Positions 2,935-29,615 of a stretch of 36,414 nucleotides of DNA are shown here, one piece after another. Position numbers and translations under genes: made by a program. Position 1 is the first letter of the stretch, and each line of letters opens with the position of its first letter. This DNA comes from Gluconobacter cerinus (GTDB lineage Bacteria > Pseudomonadota > Alphaproteobacteria > Acetobacterales > Acetobacteraceae), in assembly GCF_002723935.1 (NCBI RefSeq), contig NZ_BEWM01000011.1, positions 1 to 36,414 of the forward strand, read 5' to 3'. Below the pieces are notes generated by a model, which ran no database searches, was not told the DNA's origin, and saw nothing but the letters and a program-made list of their open reading frames with translations.

Positions 2935-4698
2935 TCAAGCTTTTAGAGCGTGCAGGTCAGCTTCAGCGTCTGAGACCAGATATGGCCCTGAAGCGTGAAC
3001 CTGAAGCGCCATGAGCGCAATACTTCCAATCGGCCGGGACCCAAGAGGCAAGAGCGCGCTTCCGTTTGTCCAGCGGCACAGGCCGTCCTCGATATTGTTC
3101 CATCCGGACAGATCGATGTCCTGCAGATGAGATGTCAGGGTCTTCGTCGCATGCCCCTCGAAAAGCTGGACATCGCCCATCAGTAGGCCGAGCATACGAC
3201 GGTCATCGACGAACGGTCCAACAACATCACACGGGCGGCTTGCATTTGAAACAATCCGAACGTTTTCAACACCAGCCGGAATCATGAACATAACCCTGTC
3301 ATGATTCTTACGGATCGGACGGAGCGTCGTACCGGTATCTGTGACCAGGTGAAGATTGTTCTCCTGCGTCAGAGACGGAATATCAGTCATAAGAGGAGAA
3401 TTGAGGTGAACAGCTCGTGTCTCAATCTGACGGAAGAGGGGTTCGACAAGATCACGGGCCACTGTCAAAGACGCTGCTGCATCCTCCCAGGACAGATTAC
3501 GGGAAGGTGTCAGGGACACGACCTCTCCAGCCTGCCGAAACGCACTACGATTTCCAGTGTCAAGATAACTCTCAGTCAGGATACCATCTGCCATGATAAC
3601 TGAATGTTCTTCAGTTTCGATGTGATAGTAATCGTAAGAGGTTATCGACGTGTCATAGAAGATCGAACGACCATTTACGAGCATACGGGCCGGAACGAAT
3701 TTTCCATCAAAAAACAGGCAGTGCTCGGCTGTGATGAGCATATCCTTGAACGGTACGCCGTCGGATACCGCGTCCTTCAGAATACGGACGGGATAGCCCG
3801 CCTGATCCCGTGGAAGATACGGTCGCACCGTACAATGCGCATGTCCCGCCCACGTGACAATATCTGTATATATCCCCCCGTCTTTATAACAGAGGACTTC
3901 GTCACCCATGACGATATCCTGCACGGCCTTTTTTCCATCGGGGACAGAAATAATCGAATCCCTCAGGAAGCAAACCAAGACTCCGTTCTGGCTTGTGTTA
4001 TTTAATGGAGTCGAACTAATGAATAAATTCCCGTCCTGATATGACTGGAACAAATTATTATTTGTTCTATAGTCATAAAAATCTCCCGATACCGTGATTG
4101 TTTTTCCATTATCTGTGACGATATTTGTACTACTTCCGCTTTTTGAAACGGAAACAACCTTTGTTGCGCCAGGAATTTCTATGGTTGATCCCGCATTCTC
4201 AAATCCTGATATACTTTGAAAAGAAATGACGGATACATTACTTCCTGGGTTAATCAGAAGTGTACCACCACCTTTTCCGAAAGCTACTTTCGATCCACTT
4301 AAGGCAGAAATTGCAGCCTGGTTCTGTACTGAATTCAAGATCAGCTTTCCGCCAGAAGAGATATTATACGTCGAACCAGAAAGGGCTGATATCGTCGAGG
4401 CACTATCCATAGAAATGGTGCCTCCATCTGCTGTGAACGTCGCACCAGTCAATGCATTGACAACGCCACCAGTCAATCCAGTTACTGTTACAAAGGCGTT
4501 GTTGCTTGAGGTGACACTCCAAGGGTTTGCCAAGGAAATTAATGAGGGAGAAAAATTGACGGAAGCATTGACGTTTTTGCCCGAAAAATTAGCGCTCGCT
4601 CCGCCAATCGATATTATTCCAAGGACCGGCAAAGCTGGAACAAGAGTGTAACTCCCGCTTTTCGTGACAGTATGGTTGTATCCATATATCAGCGACAT
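2935..4698 (-). CDS. Hint-domain (Hint_2 type) surface protein
   Basis: The 587-residue protein has an N-terminal Gly/Ser/Thr-rich part (about 1-235) with weak beta-repeat character (SGSTYNISSGGKLIL, SGSKVAFGKGGGTLLI). A Hint (hedgehog/intein) domain follows from C243 (VCFLRDSII) through H326 (LITAEHCLFFDGKFVPARM) to about residue 385. The last 200 residues form a further domain (DYYHIETEEHSVIMADGILTE, RPCDVVGPFVDDRRM, GWNNIEDG) that is strongly similar to the C-terminus of the collar-Hint protein at 19695-21851. Hint domains self-cleave through an N-S acyl shift at the first Cys. Here the usual GTxI after it is DSII, so activity is uncertain. A strong Shine-Dalgarno (AAGGA) precedes the ATG. 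There is no signal peptide. Function is unknown; an adhesive or matrix role is inference. Confidence 0.82.
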   Translation of the reverse strand: MSLIYGYNHTVTKSGSYTLVPALPVLGIISIGGASANFSGKNVNASVNFSPSLISLANPWSVTSSNNAFVTVTGLTGGVVNALTGATFTADGGTISMDSASTISALSGSTYNISSGGKLILNSVQNQAAISALSGSKVAFGKGGGTLLINPGSNVSVISFQSISGFENAGSTIEIPGATKVVSVSKSGSSTNIVTDNGKTITVSGDFYDYRTNNNLFQSYQDGNLFISSTPLNNTSQNGVLVCFLRDSIISVPDGKKAVQDIVMGDEVLCYKDGGIYTDIVTWAGHAHCTVRPYLPRDQAGYPVRILKDAVSDGVPFKDMLITAEHCLFFDGKFVPARMLVNGRSIFYDTSITSYDYYHIETEEHSVIMADGILTESYLDTGNRSAFRQAGEVVSLTPSRNLSWEDAAASLTVARDLVEPLFRQIETRAVHLNSPLMTDIPSLTQENNLHLVTDTGTTLRPIRKNHDRVMFMIPAGVENVRIVSNASRPCDVVGPFVDDRRMLGLLMGDVQLFEGHATKTLTSHLQDIDLSGWNNIEDGLCRWTNGSALLPLGSRPIGSIALMALQVHASGPYLVSDAEADLHALKA

Positions 4699-6784: not shown

Positions 6785-7690
6785 ATCGAAGAACCGGTAA
6801 TTGATATGCGTGGCTCGCAATTTCAGGCTTTTGGCGACTTAATTTCTGCTTCTTTGGGTCGCGTTGACAAGAGGTTTGATCCAGAGCCTTGCGGCGGCGA
6901 GGTTGAGGAAACTTATGAAGGACAAGACGGTCTTGTCGTATCGGGTCGCGATACGGCGCATCTGCTTGAGTTTGTTGAACATGCGCTCGATGCGGTTACG
7001 GTCCTTGTAACGCCGCCAGTCAGTGTTTTGTGGAGTGCTGCGGCCTTTGCGTGATGGAATAACCGGCAGGATACCACGGAGCAGCAGGTCCAGGCGGAAG
7101 CTGTCACTGTCATAGCTCCGATCAGCCAGCATAGCCTTGGGGGTCGGGACAGACAGCTTCATCAGGGCGTCTGTGGCTTTGTAGTCCGAGACCTGGCCTC
7201 CGGTAAGGACAAAGCCAAGAGGGCGCCCCTGAGTGTCACATCGGGCATGGATTTTGCTCGTAAAGCCGCCGCGTGATCGACCAAAAGCCTCCGAATGAGC
7301 CCCCCTTTTGCGCCCGTAGCCTGTGAATGGGCACGGACTTACGATGCTGTCGACCATATGCTGCCAGTTATCGGTTAGGCCGAGGTCCACCAGGGTTTGT
7401 AGCAGAGCATCCCCCCCCTGTTCAACCCAACGCCGGAACCGAACATAGACCGAGTTCCATTTGCCGTAGCGTTCATGCATGTCCCGCCACGGACAACCGA
7501 CGCGCAGGACATACAACATACCATTGAGAAACCGGCGGTTCTCTCCGGCTGGTCGAGCCCAACGTCCATGCTCAGGCGGCAGAAGCAGACCAATCAGCGC
7601 CCATTCCTGATCCGTCAGGTCGCCTCGCGCCATCCCCGCTTAACCTTATCGCCTTCGTCGAAGCAACCAGTGAATCAGATCTCAGGATGA
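6785..7690 (-). mobile_element. IS5-family (IS427-like) insertion sequence, apparently intact
   Basis: The element carries the complete transposase at 6839-7633. The 3' end (6785-6805) reads ATCGAAGAACCGGTAATTGA, shared with three other IS ends in the window. The 5' end could not be fixed: no matching inverted repeat was found before the transposase start, and 7690 is an estimate based on the change of sequence character. It is the only uninterrupted transposase copy here and so the only candidate for current mobility. Confidence 0.55.
6839..7633 (-). CDS. IS5/IS427-type transposase
   Basis: The 264-residue DDE transposase is in a single frame. An N-terminal DUF4096-like region (LTDQEWALIGLLLPPE, WRDMHERYGKWNSVYVRFRRW) is followed by the RNase-H-fold catalytic core. 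The likely acidic triad is D95 (HMVDSIV), D171 (MLADRSYDSD) and E216 (RNRIERMFNKLK). The last carries the N-R-x-E-R-x-F-x-x-L-K signature of this group. Many IS427-type elements need a programmed frameshift to join two frames; this one does not. The ATG follows GCGGGG, a weak ribosome binding site. It acts in trans on its own terminal repeats by cut-and-paste (family knowledge). Confidence 0.92.
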   Translation of the reverse strand: MARGDLTDQEWALIGLLLPPEHGRWARPAGENRRFLNGMLYVLRVGCPWRDMHERYGKWNSVYVRFRRWVEQGGDALLQTLVDLGLTDNWQHMVDSIVSPCPFTGYGRKRGAHSEAFGRSRGGFTSKIHARCDTQGRPLGFVLTGGQVSDYKATDALMKLSVPTPKAMLADRSYDSDSFRLDLLLRGILPVIPSRKGRSTPQNTDWRRYKDRNRIERMFNKLKQMRRIATRYDKTVLSFISFLNLAAARLWIKPLVNATQRSRN

Positions 7691-19694: not shown

Positions 19695-21851
19695 ATGGCT
19701 ACTGCAACATTCGATAATAATCAGAAGACCATAACGCTGGCGCAGGCGATTGTCATCAACGGTAGCTATCCAGTGTACGGAAATGCTTCGGGTATGCCAA
19801 TCGGACTAATTCGAACCTTCGCTTTTGATAGTGCGTCGGTATCAAATACTTTGAAAAGTCAGGGGCAGATTCTTTCTATCGCTTCCAACCAGTCGCTATT
19901 TGCTCTTCTCGGAACTGTATATGGTGGTAATGCCTATGAAAATTTCGCTCTTCCGGATCTGGCAGGAAAAGTAGAAATAGGAAGCCAGAATGGCATAGGG
20001 CAGGTGACTGGTGAAAGCCAAACCACGCTGACCGAAGAGCAGTTTCCGTCATTATTGGGTGGCACCAGCCAGTCAGTGGATAACGCTCAACCCTCCCTGA
20101 GCGTCAGTTATGTTATTCGCGTGACAAGCGATCCGTCGTCACTGGGATTCGTGGGAGAAGTAGATGCTTTCGCAGGATCACCACTAGCGATCGTGGGTGG
20201 TGAGTTTCTCGCTGCAGCAGGGCAATTAGTTTCTATCGCAGAATATCCCCAGTTATTTGCGGTTATTGGCACCACTTATGGCGGAAATGGGGTGACAACA
20301 TTTGCGCTACCTAATCTGACTGGGCGCAACATTATCGGGACGTCCAGTACGTTAAGACTGGGGGCGGTCGTAGGAAAGCAGGCAGTCTCACTTAGTGACG
20401 CGAATGTCCCCGTGTCTGATGGGGGTAGCGGTACGTCTTTTGACAATCGTGCTCCCGGGCTCGCACTAAATTACATTATCTGTGTTAACGGCGCTTTTCC
20501 TAATTCAGGTAGCGATAGTGGTCCCGTCATGGGCGAAATTCGTGCTTACGCGGGATCAGCAGCCTCCATTCCTCAGGGGTGGGTATTGGCGAATGGTACA
20601 CTGCTGCCCATTGCTCAAAACCAAGCGCTTTTTGCCCTTTTGGGCACAACTTACGGCGGTAATGGCCTTACGAACTTTGCCCTTCCAAATCTTTCAGATA
20701 CAGTTGTCGCCGGAAGTGGCGGGTCTCAGAGTTTTGGGAAGACTTACGGAAGCAACACTGCCATTCTGAGTGTATCTGATGCCGCCTGCTTTTGTCGGGG
20801 AAGCCGTATACGTACGTCCAGAGGCGATCTTCCCGTAGAAGAGATCCAGATCGGCGATCACATTGTTGCCTTTGATGACGACGTGACAAAGGGCACCATC
20901 AGGCAGGTGACGTGGGTGGGGCGATCGCGTGCTGTCGTTCGAAAGCGTCTGCCGGATGATGAAGCTGGCTATCCGGTGCGTCTGTTGAAAGGGGCGATTG
21001 CACACGACGTTCCCTACAAAGATATGCTCATTACATCAGAACATTGTCTGTTTCTTGATGGCCGGTTCGTTCCAGTACGCATGCTGGTCAATGGGCGTTC
21101 GATTTTTTTCGATAAAAGCATAGAATCTTACGATTATTATCATGTGGAGACAGAGAATCACTCTGTCATTATGGCCGATGGCGTATTAACTGAAAGCTAC
21201 CTAGATACCGGTAACCGGTTTGCCTTCAAGCAGAACGGCCCGGTTGTCTCAATGAGGCAGAGCCGTAATTTAACTTGGGATGCTGCAGCGGCCCCGCTCG
21301 ATGCTTCGCGTGATTTTGTTGAACCTCTGTATCGGAGCTTTCAGTCCCTGGCCGATCGCGTCGAACATGCGGGTCGGTCGCAAGCTCCGATTCTGACATA
21401 CGAAGATGGGTTATGCCTTGTCACTGAAACCGGACGGCTGCTTCATCCTATCCGCAAGGTGAAAGACCGGGTCATGTTCAGGATCCCTTCTGGCGTGAGG
21501 TCTGTTCTTATTCTGTCCAATGCCAGCCGTCCTTGCGATGTGATTGGTCCTTTTGTGGATGATCGTCGTATGCTTGGTGTGCTGGTCGGTTATATTGAGC
21601 TTTTTGAATCTGATACGACGACGACGTTGGTTTCCCATTTGCAGGACGCTGACCTGTCTGGCTGGAACACTATTGAAAATGGTGCGATGCGCTGGACAAA
21701 TGGAAGCGCATTGTTGCCTCTTTGTTCTCGGTCACTTGGCAGCACAGCGATCATGGCGCTTCAGGTTCACAGCGCGGGTCCATACCTAGCTTCGGATAGT
21801 TGTTCCGACCTTGTGAAACGGCAAATGGGTGATCGAAGAACCGTTGATTGA
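19695..21851 (+). CDS. Triple tail-collar repeat protein with C-terminal Hint module
   Basis: The protein has 718 residues. Three tail-collar (phage tail-fibre collar / microcystin-dependent protein) repeats centre near residues 58-96, 176-215 and 301-340. Each has the pattern GxxLxIAxxxxLFALLGTTYGG followed by NFALPNL. A Hint domain follows: C365 (ACFCRGSRIRTSRGD), the GDHIVAFDDD turn and H450 (SEHCLFLDGRFVPVRM). Then comes the same C-terminal domain as in the protein encoded at 2935-4698 (RPCDVIGPFVDDRRMLG, GWNTIENG, RWTNGSALLPL). Self-cleavage at C365 would release the collar part (family knowledge applied by inference). No signal peptide is present. The last residues (GDRRTVD) come from an inserted IS end, so the natural C-terminus is altered. 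The Shine-Dalgarno is weak. The function is unknown; a surface or contractile-particle role is possible. Confidence 0.85.
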   Translation: MATATFDNNQKTITLAQAIVINGSYPVYGNASGMPIGLIRTFAFDSASVSNTLKSQGQILSIASNQSLFALLGTVYGGNAYENFALPDLAGKVEIGSQNGIGQVTGESQTTLTEEQFPSLLGGTSQSVDNAQPSLSVSYVIRVTSDPSSLGFVGEVDAFAGSPLAIVGGEFLAAAGQLVSIAEYPQLFAVIGTTYGGNGVTTFALPNLTGRNIIGTSSTLRLGAVVGKQAVSLSDANVPVSDGGSGTSFDNRAPGLALNYIICVNGAFPNSGSDSGPVMGEIRAYAGSAASIPQGWVLANGTLLPIAQNQALFALLGTTYGGNGLTNFALPNLSDTVVAGSGGSQSFGKTYGSNTAILSVSDAACFCRGSRIRTSRGDLPVEEIQIGDHIVAFDDDVTKGTIRQVTWVGRSRAVVRKRLPDDEAGYPVRLLKGAIAHDVPYKDMLITSEHCLFLDGRFVPVRMLVNGRSIFFDKSIESYDYYHVETENHSVIMADGVLTESYLDTGNRFAFKQNGPVVSMRQSRNLTWDAAAAPLDASRDFVEPLYRSFQSLADRVEHAGRSQAPILTYEDGLCLVTETGRLLHPIRKVKDRVMFRIPSGVRSVLILSNASRPCDVIGPFVDDRRMLGVLVGYIELFESDTTTTLVSHLQDADLSGWNTIENGAMRWTNGSALLPLCSRSLGSTAIMALQVHSAGPYLASDSCSDLVKRQMGDRRTVD

Positions 21852-24322: not shown

Positions 24323-24778
24323 TTAGCCCGTTCCAGTCTCATCAAGCGTTACCCCAATGCGATAAGGCCCTTCAAAAAAGTCCCCGAGCGCCAACCGTCG
24401 TCGGAACGTAAGCCGCCGTTGAGCCAGATGATATACGCGATCATGCAGCAGGTGGCAGCGCTGGCACAGCGCCCGAAGATTGCGCAACCGGTTGACCGTG
24501 GGGTCGTGGTTCAGATGCGCAGCGGCCAAAACCACCTTGGTCTGCCGGGTTTGAAGCAAAGCGATCAAATCCGGAGGCGCGACAGGTCGTCCCCTTCCAT
24601 TAAACCAATGCCCCGTCTCCGGATGCTTCCAACGTCCCCCGGGAAGGACCTGCAGGATTTGTCCATGGGGTCGGCCACACCGCTGGCACATTCCCCCGGC
24701 TCGCTCGAACCGCACCTGTCGGCTCAACTCGGGCCAGTTGGGAGGATAAAGCGCTTTCAGTTCCTGTCTGATCGGCAT
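24323..24778 (-). CDS. HNH endonuclease-like protein
   Basis: The 151-residue protein has a zinc knuckle CQRCG near residue 31, an AAHLNHDP motif near 110 and LRALCQRCHLLHDR near 122-137. This is the CxxC / His-rich / CxxC-H layout of HNH nucleases. An AAAGGAC ribosome binding site precedes the ATG. The N-terminus (IRQELKALYPPNWPELSRQV) is typical of small stand-alone plasmid or phage HNH proteins. It is divergent from scpB. Its role (defence, mobility or repair) is not evident. Confidence 0.85.
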   Translation of the reverse strand: MPIRQELKALYPPNWPELSRQVRFERAGGMCQRCGRPHGQILQVLPGGRWKHPETGHWFNGRGRPVAPPDLIALLQTRQTKVVLAAAHLNHDPTVNRLRNLRALCQRCHLLHDRVYHLAQRRLTFRRRLALGDFFEGPYRIGVTLDETGTG

Positions 24779-24893: not shown

Positions 24894-25430
24894 ATGTTCT
24901 CGACCATGACGTCTTCTGTCCCCGATCCCGTCCGTCTCGCTGAAGCCCTCCTCTTCCAGAGCAGCGGTCCTGTGTCCCGAATAATGCTGGCGCGGGCTCT
25001 GGGAGACGACGTAGAAATCGCCCAGATCCTGAACCAAGTGGCCAGACGCACCGAGGGGCTAGGGTTTGAGTTGGTCGCGGCCGGAGACGGCTGGATGTTC
25101 CGCACCGCCCCCGACCTGGCGGAAGCCCTGAGGGCGGTATTGGAGCGACCGCCAGAACGCCTGCCCCGGGCCGTGCTAGAAGTGCTCCTGCTGATCGCTG
25201 CGCGTCAGCCGATCACCCGACCCGAAATCGAAAGCTTCCGGGATGCCGCCCTTTCGCAGAAGACCTTGGCCCTTCTGCAGAAAAAGGATCTTATTCGCAG
25301 CCTCGGTCGCAAGCCAGTGCCAGGCCAGCCGCAGCTTTGGGGGACGACCGAGACCTTCCTCGTGACCTACGGCCTGAGGTCCCTGGCGGAGCTGGATCCG
25401 CTGCTGGAAGGCCTCAGAGGGCCGCTTTAG
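24894..25430 (+). CDS. scpB: ScpB-family segregation and condensation protein
   Basis: A 178-residue protein with the two winged-helix halves of ScpB. The first is at about 13-75 (VRLAEALLFQSSGPVSRIML, GFELVAAGDGWMFRTAPDL). The second is at about 98-165 (RAVLEVLLLIAARQPITRPE, LLQKKDLIRSLGRKPVPGQP, LWGTTETFLVTYGLRSLAEL). Chromosomal ScpB dimers hold the ScpA kleisin on the SMC condensin. Here the gene lies on a repA/recombinase backbone with scpA 2 kb downstream, not adjacent. The length is slightly below the chromosomal norm. An alternative ATG sits 12 bases inside. No smc gene is in the window, so it would have to act with the host SMC or in a distinct complex. Confidence 0.85.
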   Translation: MFSTMTSSVPDPVRLAEALLFQSSGPVSRIMLARALGDDVEIAQILNQVARRTEGLGFELVAAGDGWMFRTAPDLAEALRAVLERPPERLPRAVLEVLLLIAARQPITRPEIESFRDAALSQKTLALLQKKDLIRSLGRKPVPGQPQLWGTTETFLVTYGLRSLAELDPLLEGLRGPL

Positions 25431-25581
25431 GCCCTTTTGGGCTCGTTCTAAGGAAATTCTAGGACTGCTTTTTGTCATCATAACACGTGGTAATGTTCTC
25501 TTACCGCGCGTTAGATCAAGGTTGCCTTAATTGGTGTCTTACGGCAGACTCATTGGATATTTCAGAGGGAAGATCACCGGC

Positions 25582-26580
25582 ATGACAGTCCCGACAGATC
25601 CCGCAGAGCATCTCTCCGAAGCGCCCTCCCCTACTCTGCAGAGTGCCTTGGACGCAGCAAAAAACAGCGCCCGGACTGCGGCCTACGCACCCGAAACCCT
25701 GCGAGCGTATGCCCATGACTGGCAGGCCTTCTGTCACTGGTGCGACGAACACGGAACGTCCCCTCTTCCGGCCGCTCCTCCCGTCGTTGCGGCCTGGCTG
25801 CACAGTCTGGCACCACGTTTCAGCCGCTCGGCGCTCAACCGTCGCCTGGCGGCCGTCGGCTATCAGCATCGCATGCGGGGGTTGGAGTGGAGCTCCGGCC
25901 ATGCGGCCATCCGCACCACCCTCCGCGCGGCAGGGCGTGTGTATGGCGCGCCGCAGAAACAGGCCGCTGCCCTCACCTCCCAGGAACTCCGCAAGCTCGT
26001 CGCACCCGAGCATAGCAAAACCGTCGAAGCCTTGGCGGATCTGCGCGACCGGGCCCTTCTGCTGATCGGCTTTGCCGGGGCGCTGCGCCGTTCGGAACTG
26101 GTTGCTCTGACGACGGAGACCGTCCGGATCGTGGGGACCGGCGTGAAGCTCCATATCGCCCGCAGCAAGACTGACCCCGAACATCGCGGCGAAGAGGTGT
26201 TTCTTCCCCGCGGCAAGCATCGCGAAACCTGCCCGGTTTTGGCTCTCGAGCGCTGGCTGAAGAAAGCCGAGATTACGGATGGTCCCCTCTTCCGGTCGAT
26301 CAACCGCTGGGAGCAGGTGGGACGCGAGGCCCTGCATCCGGATGCCGTCCGGCAGATCCTGCTGCGCCGTGCCAGGGTGGCCGGACTTAAGGTGCCTTCC
26401 GGGGAACGCCTCAGCCCGCATGGGCTGCGTGCGGGCTTTGTCACCGAGGCCTTCCGGGCCAATGCCCGGGACGAGCAGATCATGGCACACACCCGCCACC
26501 GGGACCTGCGCAGCATGCGCCGCTATGTCCGTCGGGCCCGTCTGGATCTGGACTCTCCCGCCCATCTTCTGGACCTGTAG
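25582..26580 (+). CDS. Tyrosine recombinase / integrase
   Basis: The 332-residue site-specific recombinase has an N-terminal SAM-like DNA-binding domain at about 30-130 (YAPETLRAYAHDWQAFCHW). The catalytic domain carries R169 (GALRRSELVAL), K196 (RSKTDPEHRG), H280 and R283 (SPHGLRAGFVTEA), H306 (TRHRDLRSMRRYV) and nucleophile Y315. The start at 25582 follows GAGGGAAG; a TTG-initiated frame 51 bases longer exists. It probably resolves plasmid multimers, or integrates and excises the element. Its place between scpB and scpA suggests a maintenance role. No core sites were identified. Confidence 0.92.
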   Translation: MTVPTDPAEHLSEAPSPTLQSALDAAKNSARTAAYAPETLRAYAHDWQAFCHWCDEHGTSPLPAAPPVVAAWLHSLAPRFSRSALNRRLAAVGYQHRMRGLEWSSGHAAIRTTLRAAGRVYGAPQKQAAALTSQELRKLVAPEHSKTVEALADLRDRALLLIGFAGALRRSELVALTTETVRIVGTGVKLHIARSKTDPEHRGEEVFLPRGKHRETCPVLALERWLKKAEITDGPLFRSINRWEQVGREALHPDAVRQILLRRARVAGLKVPSGERLSPHGLRAGFVTEAFRANARDEQIMAHTRHRDLRSMRRYVRRARLDLDSPAHLLDL

Positions 26581-26583
26581 CCC

Positions 26584-27378
26584 ATGCCACAGACGACGGC
26601 TGAAATCATCGCGGACCTTGATGCGACAGTCGCGCGCCTGGAAGCCTATCGTCTGGAACTGGAAGCGCGCCCCGTTGCTCACGGGTATCTCGAACCGGGC
26701 CCCAGTAACGACGATGAGCCGGGGGTCGGCTTTCGTCTCCCCACTCGTCCAGCGCTCACCCGCCACACCCCAAGGCCACTGGCAAGCGGCACAGGGTTTT
26801 CAATCGCCGGGTCAGAGCCGTTAGAGCCGTTAGAGCCGAAGACCCCTCTTTCTCGTCCGCTATTCAATCCTCAACCGGACTGGCTGGCACATGTCTTGAC
26901 CGTCACAGGGTCAGAAGCCGTACTGGCCCGGTTCCAGGCAGCAGCAGCGGGGACTGGCCGTCTATCGTGGGGGCCGGATGTCACCAGCCGCGAAGATCTG
27001 AGCCGGTCCTTTCCCGTTGGGGACGCCCGGACAGCCGCTTTGATCGGCCAGATTGTCCAGAGCCATACGGTCCTTCTCGAACGGGAGGCAGGATCGGGCT
27101 CAGTTCCGTTTGACCTTAATGCCCTTTGTCCTATGCCTCTGAATCTTCTCTCCCTCGGCCCCGCTTCCTCCATGACACAAGCGTGGCTGTGGGAGCACTG
27201 GGGAACGTCGCGGCCACTGCAGCAGGTCGACGTCATGGACGGGCATCCGAAAAAGCATACCAACCGCTGGAGTGTTTCGTTCTGGTCGGCGGACTGGACG
27301 CCCTGGGCGGCTCTTCAAACCATTGCGACCCGATGGCCCGACCTCACCTTTGCCATACGCCCGCTTTACGATGTCTGA
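26584..27378 (+). CDS. YubB/DUF1281-like protein with coiled N-terminus
   Basis: The 264-residue protein is tentatively placed. It starts with a short helical stretch (TTAEIIADLDATVARLEAYR) and a Pro-rich linker in which a 9-base unit (GTTAGAGCC) is repeated around 26820-26840, giving PLEPLEPLEPK. The C-terminal half resembles plasmid YubB/Api92-type ferredoxin-like domains: WLAHVLTVTGSEAVLARFQA, PLNLLSLGPASS, WLWEHWGTSRPLQQVDV, WSVSFWSADWTPWAALQTIA and LTFAIRPLYDV. The family has no established biochemical role. It lies 3 bases after the recombinase and overlaps scpA by 8 bases, so the four genes scpB-recombinase-this-scpA are read together. Confidence 0.6.
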   Translation: MPQTTAEIIADLDATVARLEAYRLELEARPVAHGYLEPGPSNDDEPGVGFRLPTRPALTRHTPRPLASGTGFSIAGSEPLEPLEPKTPLSRPLFNPQPDWLAHVLTVTGSEAVLARFQAAAAGTGRLSWGPDVTSREDLSRSFPVGDARTAALIGQIVQSHTVLLEREAGSGSVPFDLNALCPMPLNLLSLGPASSMTQAWLWEHWGTSRPLQQVDVMDGHPKKHTNRWSVSFWSADWTPWAALQTIATRWPDLTFAIRPLYDV

Positions 27379-28129
27379 GGGACTGCTTTTGGAAGTTGGT
27401 GCCTGGCAGGGCCCGCTGGAGGCGCTCCTGCAGGCGGTCCGTCGTCGTGCGATAGATCTTGGGACGCTTCCGCTGAGAGAACTGATCGAACAGTTTTTGA
27501 TCTGCGTGGAAGAGGGGCTTAAAAACCGTCCCCTCGAACAGACTGCGAACGATCTTGTTCTGGCAGCAACCCTTCTTCAAATGCGCTCGGCTCTTCTGCT
27601 TCGGGAAGATACTGAAGAGCACCTTGCCGCCCACTCGGCAGCCGAGCAGCTCCAACGCGTCCTGCTTCGAAAGGACACGCTTTTGCAAGCCGTGGAGTGC
27701 TTTGAAACTCGGCCTGTGCTGGGCGAAAGTGTTTTTGGACGCGGGAAACTGCCCCCCTCGCCTTCTGCTGCTGAGACAGCGTCTTCAATCCTCACCCAAG
27801 ATCTACTGGACGCGCTTTTGTCAGCATCTCGTCGGAGGGCAAAGCTGCGGCCCCCAGAGAGTATCTTCCAGCCTTCTTTAGTACCGCGTGTTTCTGTTCA
27901 GGACGCTTTGGCATGGTGGCAGCGGAAAGTTCGGGACTATCCGGAGAGCACGTGGGACCTCGTCGAAGGCGTGATTCATTTTTCTCTTGGCGCGAGCCCT
28001 CAAAACCTAATGCAGCGCAAGGCCACGTGGGCTGCTCATCTTTCGGCCGTTTTGGAACTTGAAAAACGAGGAGAATTATATCTTAGACAGTTGCACCTGC
28101 CACGAACATTTGCAGTTGATCGTCCCTGA
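27371..28129 (+). CDS. scpA: ScpA-family kleisin
   Basis: The 252-residue protein starts at ATG 27371, inside a longer frame. The chosen start gives the family N-terminus (SEGLLLEVGAWQGPLEALLQ, VRRRAIDLGTLPLRELIEQF). The kleisin core motif follows (ANDLVLAATLLQMRSALLLR), then a variable middle and a C-terminal winged helix (DLVEGVIHFSLG, AHLSAVLELEKRGELYLRQL). ScpA bridges the two heads of SMC and binds ScpB. The start overlaps the stop of the preceding gene by 8 bases. It is divergent enough from typical chromosomal ScpA to be a dedicated plasmid copy (inference). Confidence 0.83.
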   Translation: MSEGLLLEVGAWQGPLEALLQAVRRRAIDLGTLPLRELIEQFLICVEEGLKNRPLEQTANDLVLAATLLQMRSALLLREDTEEHLAAHSAAEQLQRVLLRKDTLLQAVECFETRPVLGESVFGRGKLPPSPSAAETASSILTQDLLDALLSASRRRAKLRPPESIFQPSLVPRVSVQDALAWWQRKVRDYPESTWDLVEGVIHFSLGASPQNLMQRKATWAAHLSAVLELEKRGELYLRQLHLPRTFAVDRP

Positions 28130-28325: not shown

Positions 28326-28654
28326 TTTGGACTCTTCTCGCTCTATCCCCCTCGCTGTCCGCATCATCCTCTTTCACATCTTTTGGACTCTTCTCGCACC
28401 CTCTTGGACTTTCCTCGCTCATTGCAGACAGCCGTAATCCACAGCGATTTGAATTTAAAACAGTTATCCCTTGGGGTCTCCTCGCTCATTTCTTGGGCTT
28501 TGCTCGCTACAATGGTGGTTATCCCTTGGACTCTGGTCGCGCATATCTAATAGATATATCTAATAATCTTCCTAGAGCGCGCGAGCAGAGTCCAAACCGC
28601 GGCGAGTGGAGTCCAAGGGAGTTCTGTGGAAAAATCGCCGCGAGCAAAGTCCAA
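28326..28654. other. Iteron-type replication origin (oriV)
   Basis: A 17-base unit, consensus TTGGACTCTNCTCGCTC, recurs upstream of repA. Six copies point rightward, starting near 28327, 28383, 28404, 28471, 28493 and 28526. Three point leftward (GAGCAGAGTCCAA-like), ending near 28595, 28616 and 28654. An AT-rich stretch at 28542-28571 separates the two groups and suits an unwinding element. GTAATCCACAG near 28434 is a weak DnaA-box candidate. The leftward copies overlap the repA ribosome binding site and start, which suits RepA autorepression. Origin assignment is inferred from iterons plus RepA. Confidence 0.82.
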
Positions 28655-29615
28655 ATTGACACCCGATCGCCGGCCATGGAAAGTCACGTTCATGGGTGAA
28701 ATACACAACCTTCTTGAACGCCATGGACTCCATGAAGCTCGGCGACAGGCGTCTCTCGATGGGCAGCTAAGCCGTGTATGTGTCGATGCTGCTCATGAAG
28801 TATTAAGTGATGAAGCTTTACAAATTGGCATCACTCATTCGGGCTTTGCGATGGCTGCTCTGCCTCATAAAAAGACTGAAGAGACCGTATGGGAACGTGA
28901 AGGCGGAGGAATCAAACTTCTTATTGAAAGCGGCTTAAACGACGACAAAACTCCCGTGGGTATTCCATACGGCTCAATGGCTCGTATGATTCTCCTCTAT
29001 TTACAAACTCAAGCAGTAAAAACACAATCCCGTGAAGTCGAGCTTGGCTCTTCGATGAATGCTTGGCTTAAAGTAATGGGAATTACTGTTGGTGGGAAAA
29101 CTTATAATTCCGTAAGAGACCAAGCAAAAAGAATCAGTCAGTGCAGACTAACATTTTTTCGCGTCCACAATGGAGCAAAAATGGTTAGTAACGGAGCATT
29201 TGTACGGGATGCAATCTTTCCAATTCAGGAAGATGAAAATCAACCTTCGTTTTGGAGAGAAGTTGTTCGTTTAGACGAAAGTTTTTACGAAAGCTTGATT
29301 GACCACCCTCTGCCACTTCGGGAAGTAGCAATTCGTCAAATATCCGGAAAATCAAAAGCGATAGATACATATATTTGGTTAGCTTACAGGCTACATATAC
29401 TCAAAGAACCAGTATCTATCTCGTGGTATGCTTTCAAAGGACAGTTTGGACCAGAATATGCGCGTATGCGTGACTTCAAACGTGATATTACAGGCCCACT
29501 AAAACTAGCCCTCTCTGTTTATCCAGAAGCACACGTAGATGTTGATATGGAAAAAGGGTTGATACTATATCCCTCCCCTCCTCCAGTACCAGAGAGACGT
29601 ATACTAGGGCGTTAA
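28626..29615 (+). CDS. repA: Plasmid replication initiator RepA (RPA family)
   Basis: The protein is about 329 residues from GTG 28626, which has AAGGGAG 5 bases upstream. An ATG at 28692 (MGEIHNLLERHG) is an alternative, 22 codons in. Family features include QIGITHSGFAMAALPHKK, GIPYGSMARMILLYLQTQAV, SREVELGSSMNAWLKVMGI, a winged-helix-like region RLDESFYESLIDHPLPLREV and AIDTYIWLAYRLHILKEPVS. It binds the iterons just upstream to open the origin (family knowledge). The DNA is more AT-rich than the scp block. It is the clearest evidence that the window is a plasmid. Confidence 0.88.
   Translation: MEKSPRAKSKLTPDRRPWKVTFMGEIHNLLERHGLHEARRQASLDGQLSRVCVDAAHEVLSDEALQIGITHSGFAMAALPHKKTEETVWEREGGGIKLLIESGLNDDKTPVGIPYGSMARMILLYLQTQAVKTQSREVELGSSMNAWLKVMGITVGGKTYNSVRDQAKRISQCRLTFFRVHNGAKMVSNGAFVRDAIFPIQEDENQPSFWREVVRLDESFYESLIDHPLPLREVAIRQISGKSKAIDTYIWLAYRLHILKEPVSISWYAFKGQFGPEYARMRDFKRDITGPLKLALSVYPEAHVDVDMEKGLILYPSPPPVPERRILGR

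Follow-up and report, generated by a model that had tools for sequence, protein, structure and literature searches.

Contig NZ_BEWM01000011.1 of Gluconobacter cerinus (assembly GCF_002723935.1), 36,414 nucleotides long and analysed whole, is called the window here. It carries four genes in one direction, namely scpB, a tyrosine recombinase gene, a gene for a YubB/Api92-like protein and scpA, with a dif-like inverted repeat between the first two. This module is a real, conserved unit of recombinase, site and YubB-like protein that mostly acquired a kleisin, and not a substitute for parAB. As the window is the entire contig C11 of an assembly of 3.58 Mb in 49 contigs, it is just part of a plasmid. 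Its nearest relative is the 213.8-kilobase (kb) plasmid of Gluconobacter oxydans H24 (CP003927), typed as conjugative; the identity to it is 95.6% across 24.3–29.7 kb of the window and 96.5% across 22.0–32.3 kb.

The scpB gene (24894..25430, plus strand) encodes a kite subunit of the SMC-Scp complex of 178 amino acids (PF04079, SMC_ScpB, 9e-37) and is an accessory gene of the module. The repeat, a 13-7-13 arrangement at 25481..25513 with no strand assigned, was recovered by alignment of the gap and by a repeat scan, and is proposed to be a crossover site; its linkage to the recombinase is new, beyond what a sequence-only reading of this DNA had reported. The recombinase gene (25582..26580, plus strand; best start ATG 25582) encodes a Xer-like protein of 332 amino acids (PF00589, Phage_integrase, 2.1e-10; PF02899, 2.5e-7). 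It is followed by the marker gene of the module, ORF3 (26584..27378, plus strand), encoding a YubB/Api92-like protein of 264 amino acids with a ferredoxin fold predicted by Foldseek comparison, and by scpA (27371..28129, plus strand), encoding a kleisin of 252 amino acids in which only the N-terminal part matches PF02616 (SMC_ScpA, 1.4e-5). The start of scpA is ATG 27371, position 27272 being merely the furthest-upstream GTG. The order and common direction of the four genes, all of them present and open, agree with the sequence-only reading, and so do the last two junctions: the recombinase gene and ORF3 are 3 bases apart, and the stop of ORF3 overlaps the start of scpA by 8 bases.

Distribution and conservation of the module

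The YubB-like gene occurs in 50 of 72,556 plasmid records, from seven genera; every record opened was from the Acetobacteraceae, where we also presume Rhodovastum, one of the seven, to belong. It has 143 relatives among GTDB contigs, mostly in the Acetobacteraceae, Roseomonadaceae and Acidocellaceae, while a few belong to metagenome genomes that bear other labels; 79 of these loci were examined. Among 150 genomes of the order the gene was found in 21, every one from the same family. On viral contigs it has a single relative, hence a phage module is hardly likely.

The locus set comprises 93 sources, of which 92 have the YubB-like gene. The loci are related and the counts are not independent, and for this reason no P value is given. 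A recombinase lies on the same strand in 84 of the 92 loci, either in the same frame or starting no more than 2.6 kb upstream. In eight loci, mainly from Komagataeibacter and its kin, a single open frame contains both the YubB-like domain and recombinase sequence. The scpA gene follows in 79 of the 92 loci, its start being within 13 bases of the YubB-like stop in 78 of these 79, with the nearest start chosen, which favours tight overlap. Thirteen loci have no downstream scpA, one of them (L135) cut short and 12 with at least 1.6 kb of sequence. Thus scpA has often been added to the recombinase–site–YubB unit and is then tightly coupled to it.

The scpB gene lies within the examined stretch in 20 of the 92 loci, namely 19 from Gluconobacter and Acetobacter, the strain considered here included, and L113. 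Each of 19 module-bearing genomes chosen for comparison encodes a single ScpB with a high score, interpreted as the chromosomal copy, and an additional ScpB is seen in five of the 19, all five Gluconobacter or Acetobacter. No plasmid ScpB was found in Roseomonas, Komagataeibacter, Acidisoma, Lichenicola and Acetobacter vaccinii (one plasmid each). Recurrence of the four-gene order on other Acetobacteraceae plasmids therefore holds for the recombinase and the YubB-like gene, whereas neither scpA nor scpB is invariable.

Two further loci were observed in passing. In L006 (Gluconobacter thailandicus, NZ_CP043044 53039–70234) the module has decayed: a gene for an HNH-endonuclease-like protein and scpB are kept and transposase genes adjoin, the right arm of the site is damaged, and the stretch examined is devoid of the recombinase, the YubB-like gene and scpA. 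In L072 (Acetobacter nitrogenifigens) the recombinase is preceded by several ScpB-like frames, one of which has a TGA within it.

The strain has a second copy of the module on contig C7. The four proteins of the C11 and C7 copies are 90–97% identical, and the adjoining RepA proteins just 46.5%. Hence the module has moved between replication types, or else exchange has kept the copies similar. The ratio of nonsynonymous to synonymous substitution rates (dN/dS) of all four genes is 0.06–0.35 (two comparisons, against two relatives), and each of them is thus under purifying selection.

The recombinase and the dif-like repeat

The window recombinase has all the catalytic residues, Arg, Lys, His-x-x-Arg, His/Trp and Tyr, at positions that we take to be the catalytic ones. 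In the aligned single-recombinase loci the respective counts are 60/68 for Arg, 56/67 for Lys, 59/63 for His, 62/64 for Arg, 58/61 for His and 58/61 for Tyr. The protein falls below the NCBIfam equivalog cut-offs for XerC and XerD (46.4 and 40.5 bits versus 335.15 and 329.6), as does the best XerD match of its own genome (283.7). A short inverted repeat linked to the recombinase, as expected for Xer-type resolution, is seen, though not in every locus.

In the alignment of the scpB–recombinase gaps, the arms TAACACGTGGTAA and TTACCRCGTGTTA are conserved and the 7-base-pair (bp) core is variable. The window repeat is TAACACGTGGTAA-tgttctc-TTACCGCGCGTTA. It is the sole repeat of its kind in the window at up to two mismatches, the average for the shuffled window being 0.21. 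Six plasmids have one copy each and the genome of the strain has two, one before each module, the control with a reversed pattern yielding 0. More distant genera have different letters on the same plan, e.g. AGGCACGATAA-N7-TTATCGTGCCT.

A strict scan (arms of 11, at most one mismatch) detected the repeat in 38 of 82 loci, versus 0 of 1640 shuffles and 3 of 711 other windows; a looser one (at most two mismatches) detected it in 45 of 81 loci, versus 3 of 1620 shuffles and 5 of 605 other windows. The scans excluded three loci whose recombinase is at a contig end, and the strict one counted L113 twice.

The core length mostly follows the number of recombinases. A site at up to two mismatches is present in 40 of 69 single-recombinase loci, and in 38 of these the core is 7 bp. 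Twelve loci have a strong second, divergent recombinase upstream; 11 of them have a candidate site (at most three mismatches), always with a 6-bp core. Ten of these candidates are asymmetric, with GACAA on the left and TTATC on the right, a form near what we take to be the plan of the XerCD dif site; the candidate in L125 differs and is doubtful, and L076 has none. With a weak second recombinase (three loci), L114 and L115 keep 7 bp, and L133 has no site. Eleven more loci have strict candidates farther off, eight with 7 bp and three with 6 bp, the 7-bp candidate of L110 not being of the dif-like plan. The host dif itself was not found in the genome at up to three mismatches, with a pattern that we presume to represent it and that may be wrong.

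The repeat at 25481–25513 is likely to be the target of the recombinase. Multimer resolution by this enzyme, suggested by the sequence-only reading, is thus supported by the retained catalytic residues and by a linked dif-like repeat present in a single copy per plasmid, both of which are features that predict the activity.

ScpA, ScpB and the YubB-like protein

The window ScpB scores 126.6 bits with PF04079 (cut-off 27.4) and 86.5 with TIGR00281, slightly under the cut-off of 89.2. Contig C1 of the same genome encodes SMC, ScpA and ScpB; the window proteins are 42.3% (ScpB) and 34% (ScpA) identical to the C1 copies. Since the host has its own scpA-scpB pair and SMC, as well as two Xer-type recombinases on large contigs, the plasmid genes are additional, and the plasmid pair is not the sole copy of the host.

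PF02616, the N-terminal domain contacting the SMC neck, is matched by 35 of 38 plasmid ScpA proteins, and four match Rad21_Rec8. Solved ScpA chains are matched as well (3zgx, 2.3e-8; 3w6j, 8.7e-8). The plasmid proteins have a GPLDLLLE-type motif at the start and an LEL...Q motif at the end, which we take to be kleisin motifs. The last 78 residues of the ScpA model resemble the ScpA C-terminal winged helix on the B. subtilis SMC head, with a weak Foldseek E-value, other winged helices scoring close, and a low-confidence middle of the model (predicted template-modelling score 0.36). The predicted model thus has a candidate for the C-terminal winged helix with which a kleisin covers the SMC head. 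To all appearances, plasmid ScpA is a complete kleisin and differs from the other copy of the host.

The 30 best-scoring other ScpA proteins of the family all match the plasmid ScpA profile, 29 of them at 6e-49 or better. In a tree of 45 module ScpAs and these 30, the two groups part at one branch with support 98/96. Here the 45 were chosen for spread from 79 module ScpAs, L143 and L059 form very long branches, there is no outgroup, and the 30, selected as the top PF02616 matches, are assumed rather than shown by synteny to be chromosomal. The phylogenetic comparison with chromosomal copies proposed earlier thus places plasmid ScpA on a separate branch. That the kleisin joins host SMC, as the same reading supposed, is plausible given SMC, ScpA and ScpB on C1 and both kleisin ends retained, and the tie to SMC itself is to that extent presumed.

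The window YubB-like protein has no Pfam match and gets no useful name from Pfam or PHROGs; at E ≤ 1, none of 37 members matches a YubB or DUF1281 model. Its predicted fold matches 2ijr (Api92) with Foldseek probability 1.00 (E 2.4e-3, template-modelling score 0.36) and viral YubB proteins (best E 1.4e-6, score 0.58 by target). The earlier assignment to YubB therefore stands as a likeness of the predicted fold, but not as a profile match.

Scp proteins have a wider distribution on plasmids. ScpB homologues are found in 747 plasmid records, mostly from the Alphaproteobacteria judging by the genera named, and some records are chromosome-sized. Other loci (the L061, L062, L060 set) include a DUF1403–ScpB pair in Methylocystis, a lone ScpB in Sulfitobacter and overlapping scpA-scpB on a 709-kb plasmid of Bosea; these are possibly other plasmid uses of Scp proteins.

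Proposed mechanism and alternatives

We suggest, with a probability of about one half, that the module is a multimer-resolution and post-replication disentangling unit, and that in most plasmids a kleisin of the plasmid's own connects it with host SMC. The recombinase would bind the repeat at 25481–25513 and turn two-site plasmid dimers into monomers. Plasmid ScpA would join host SMC, with its own ScpB in Gluconobacter and Acetobacter and presumably with host ScpB elsewhere, so that the resulting SMC complex would carry a plasmid label; its loading or release might be steered at the recombinase-bound site in the way that XerD of B. subtilis acts on Smc-ScpAB. The YubB-like protein is a likely adaptor, because it constantly accompanies the recombinase, its gene overlaps scpA, and it shares a frame with the recombinase in some loci. 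The module would act beside a ParA-type partition system, not in place of one, and the loci without scpA would represent a plain resolution form, perhaps the older form of the module (L095, L098, L104, L132, L137, L139, L141). Multimer resolution at the linked site is the firm part of this mechanism, with strand exchange itself predicted from the enzyme and the repeat; the link to SMC is suggested by homology and by the precedent of XerD. A more specific version would be a private condensin, made of host SMC and a kleisin exclusive to plasmids, which the recombinase loads or releases at the dif-like site via the YubB-like adaptor, uniting loop extrusion with dimer resolution on top of an older recombinase–YubB pair; we regard this version as possible but doubtful.

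Several observations weigh against the resolution and disentangling role. Binding of ScpA to SMC or to the recombinase and recombination at the repeat are deduced from sequence, and the host has the two further Xer-type recombinases. In the PDB, Foldseek gave no match at E ≤ 0.001 for the ScpA or the YubB-like model. The site of the window fails the strict scan and passes the looser one, because its arms differ at two positions; in 36 of 81 loci the scanned stretch has no site at up to two mismatches, and three of the 11 candidates in two-recombinase loci have three mismatches, a threshold without a background control. Exceptions to the spacer rule are L057 and L101, with a single recombinase and 6 bp (L101 has a recombinase fragment farther upstream), and, among the far candidates, L094, L102 and L135, with 6 bp. 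A site of this plan was found on none of three plasmids of Roseomonas mucosa TT14 and is lacking on one of four in Lichenicola. Co-resident plasmids share the core: it is TGTTCTC in both modules of the strain, and three Lichenicola plasmids have near-identical sites, so that the expected differing cores were not found in either case. No scpB lies within the stretch examined in 72 of the 92 loci. Finally, in the 12 scpA-less loci with room, no overlapping gene replaces scpA (L100 has an opposite-strand scpA), and the repeat is retained in eight of them (L095, L098, L100, L104, L132, L137, L139, L141), hence the recombinase, the site and the YubB-like gene can stand without scpA.

These scpA-less loci lead to the leading alternative, to which we give a chance of no better than a quarter or so: plain Xer- or Cre-like dimer resolution by the recombinase, the site and the YubB-like protein, with ScpA and ScpB riding along or tuning host SMC in some other way. 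The recombinase and the site are the best-supported pair, retained together without scpA in at least eight loci, and dedicated recombinase–site pairs such as Cre-lox of P1 are enough for other plasmids. However, scpA is present in 79 of the 92 loci, where its start keeps close to the YubB-like stop, and purifying selection acts on all four genes.

The repeat could also be an operator for autoregulation, with the recombinase acting on DNA elsewhere. It ends 68 bases upstream of the recombinase start, which leaves space for a promoter. On the other hand, its arms of 11–13 bp flank a core of 6–7 bp with varying letters, and no further copy is present anywhere in the genome of the strain at up to three mismatches. 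As the core length mostly tracks the number of recombinases, a crossover site is indicated rather than an operator, and we consider the latter unlikely.

Less probable still is a decoy, that is, a dominant-negative kleisin disarming SMC-type surveillance of plasmids by Wadjet-like complexes or by host Smc-ScpAB. SMC-like complexes act against plasmids, according to one report (PMC10586767), and ScpA without its own ScpB, as in most loci, would fit an unbalanced subunit; but both kleisin ends are retained, and a decoy has no role for the recombinase or the site. Moreover, no PADLOC model matches ScpA or ScpB, Wadjet being among the systems covered by PADLOC.

The least probable explanation is the one offered by the sequence-only reading, maintenance independent of ParAB with a kleisin pair loading host SMC in place of a partition system: the window indeed has no parA, parB or smc (0 AAA_31, SMC_N or ParB_N matches on C11 in a profile scan of the genome), but ParA-type genes are present on all six related plasmids that have the module or its remnant. 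In four of the six, ParA is accompanied by an adjacent gene of about 100 codons, and in two a canonical parA-parB pair lies beside a second repA; on the G. albidus plasmid the small gene by ParA resembles none of the others. ParA and its partner from H24 share 99.6% and 99.0% identity with a pair at 46.4–47.4 kb of contig C9 of the assembly considered here, and the C9 stretch with this pair is collinear with the H24 plasmid (89.8%). Contigs C9 and C11 likely belong to one plasmid, the plasmid of the window being judged via C9 alone. Contig C25 has another pair, with 59% and 46% identity to the pair on a G. sphaericus plasmid.

Beside the H24 parA, five near-identical tandem units of 440 bases (99% matches) were observed at 7138–9341 of L049 (CP003927 47137–49340). 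They may be the partition site of H24.

Neighbouring features

Nine iteron-like repeats (28327..28654; six on the plus strand and three on the minus strand; at most three mismatches to TTGGACTCTNNTCGC) begin about 200 bases past scpA and are likely to form the replication origin; seven more matches to TTGGACTCTNNTCGC are scattered elsewhere in the window. They are followed by the gene for the replication initiator, repA (28692..29615, plus strand, with a possible GTG start at 28626; PF04796, RepA_C, 2.5e-25), so that the iterons and repA are placed as initially described.

On the other side, a gene for an HNH-endonuclease-like protein of 151 amino acids (24323..24778, minus strand) is divergent from scpB. 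It matches the PADLOC HNH (ZorE) model at 1.1e-5 and the Pfam HNH family at just 0.08. Profile matches to it occur in 18 of the 93 sources, and it adjoins the module in most Gluconobacter loci. It is perhaps outside the mechanism. Elsewhere in the window, 2935–4698 and 19695–21851 encode two Hint_2-domain proteins, the second one also with phage tail collar domains.

Relation to known systems

To our knowledge, it is an open question how a recombinase and Smc-ScpAB touch. According to three reports, XerD of B. subtilis unloads Smc-ScpAB at the chromosome terminus, and the contact maps of large replicons hint at a broader occurrence of unloading at dif (PMC12322038, PMC8669397, PMC13342612). 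The module shares with XerC/XerD-dif a tyrosine recombinase, an inverted-repeat site and a short core, and a functional tie to Smc-ScpAB is proposed for it; unlike that system, it is plasmid-borne, usually has its own kleisin and a YubB-like partner, and mostly combines one recombinase with a 7-bp core.

Dedicated resolution recombinases of plasmids are Cre, acting at lox in P1, and ResD, acting at rfsF in F. The module likewise has a recombinase beside a single short site, and adds a YubB-like protein and a kleisin. Its ScpA and ScpB are homologous to those of chromosomal Smc-ScpAB, with both kleisin ends kept, but it has no smc gene, and its proteins diverge from the C1 copies (34% and 42% identity) and occupy a separate tree branch. 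With YubB/Api92 (DUF1281) proteins it has in common a predicted fold, whereas the module protein lacks a Pfam match and has a fixed place after the recombinase. In streptococcal chromosomes, xerD, scpA and scpB are neighbours; recombinase and Scp genes are adjacent there as in the module, but on the chromosome.

No description of this module was found in the literature searched, a search that left most subscription journals outside. The module is a small portable unit of a recombinase, a likely site and a kleisin, existing in many natural forms: the recombinases number one or two, scpA and scpB may each be present or absent, and fusions occur in some. It lends itself to dissection and testing on a plasmid with the host SMC genes untouched. 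If the proposed role is true, this would be a plasmid maintenance system not described in that literature, and plasmids would have their own version of a housekeeping system of the chromosome with which to sort out joined or tangled copies.

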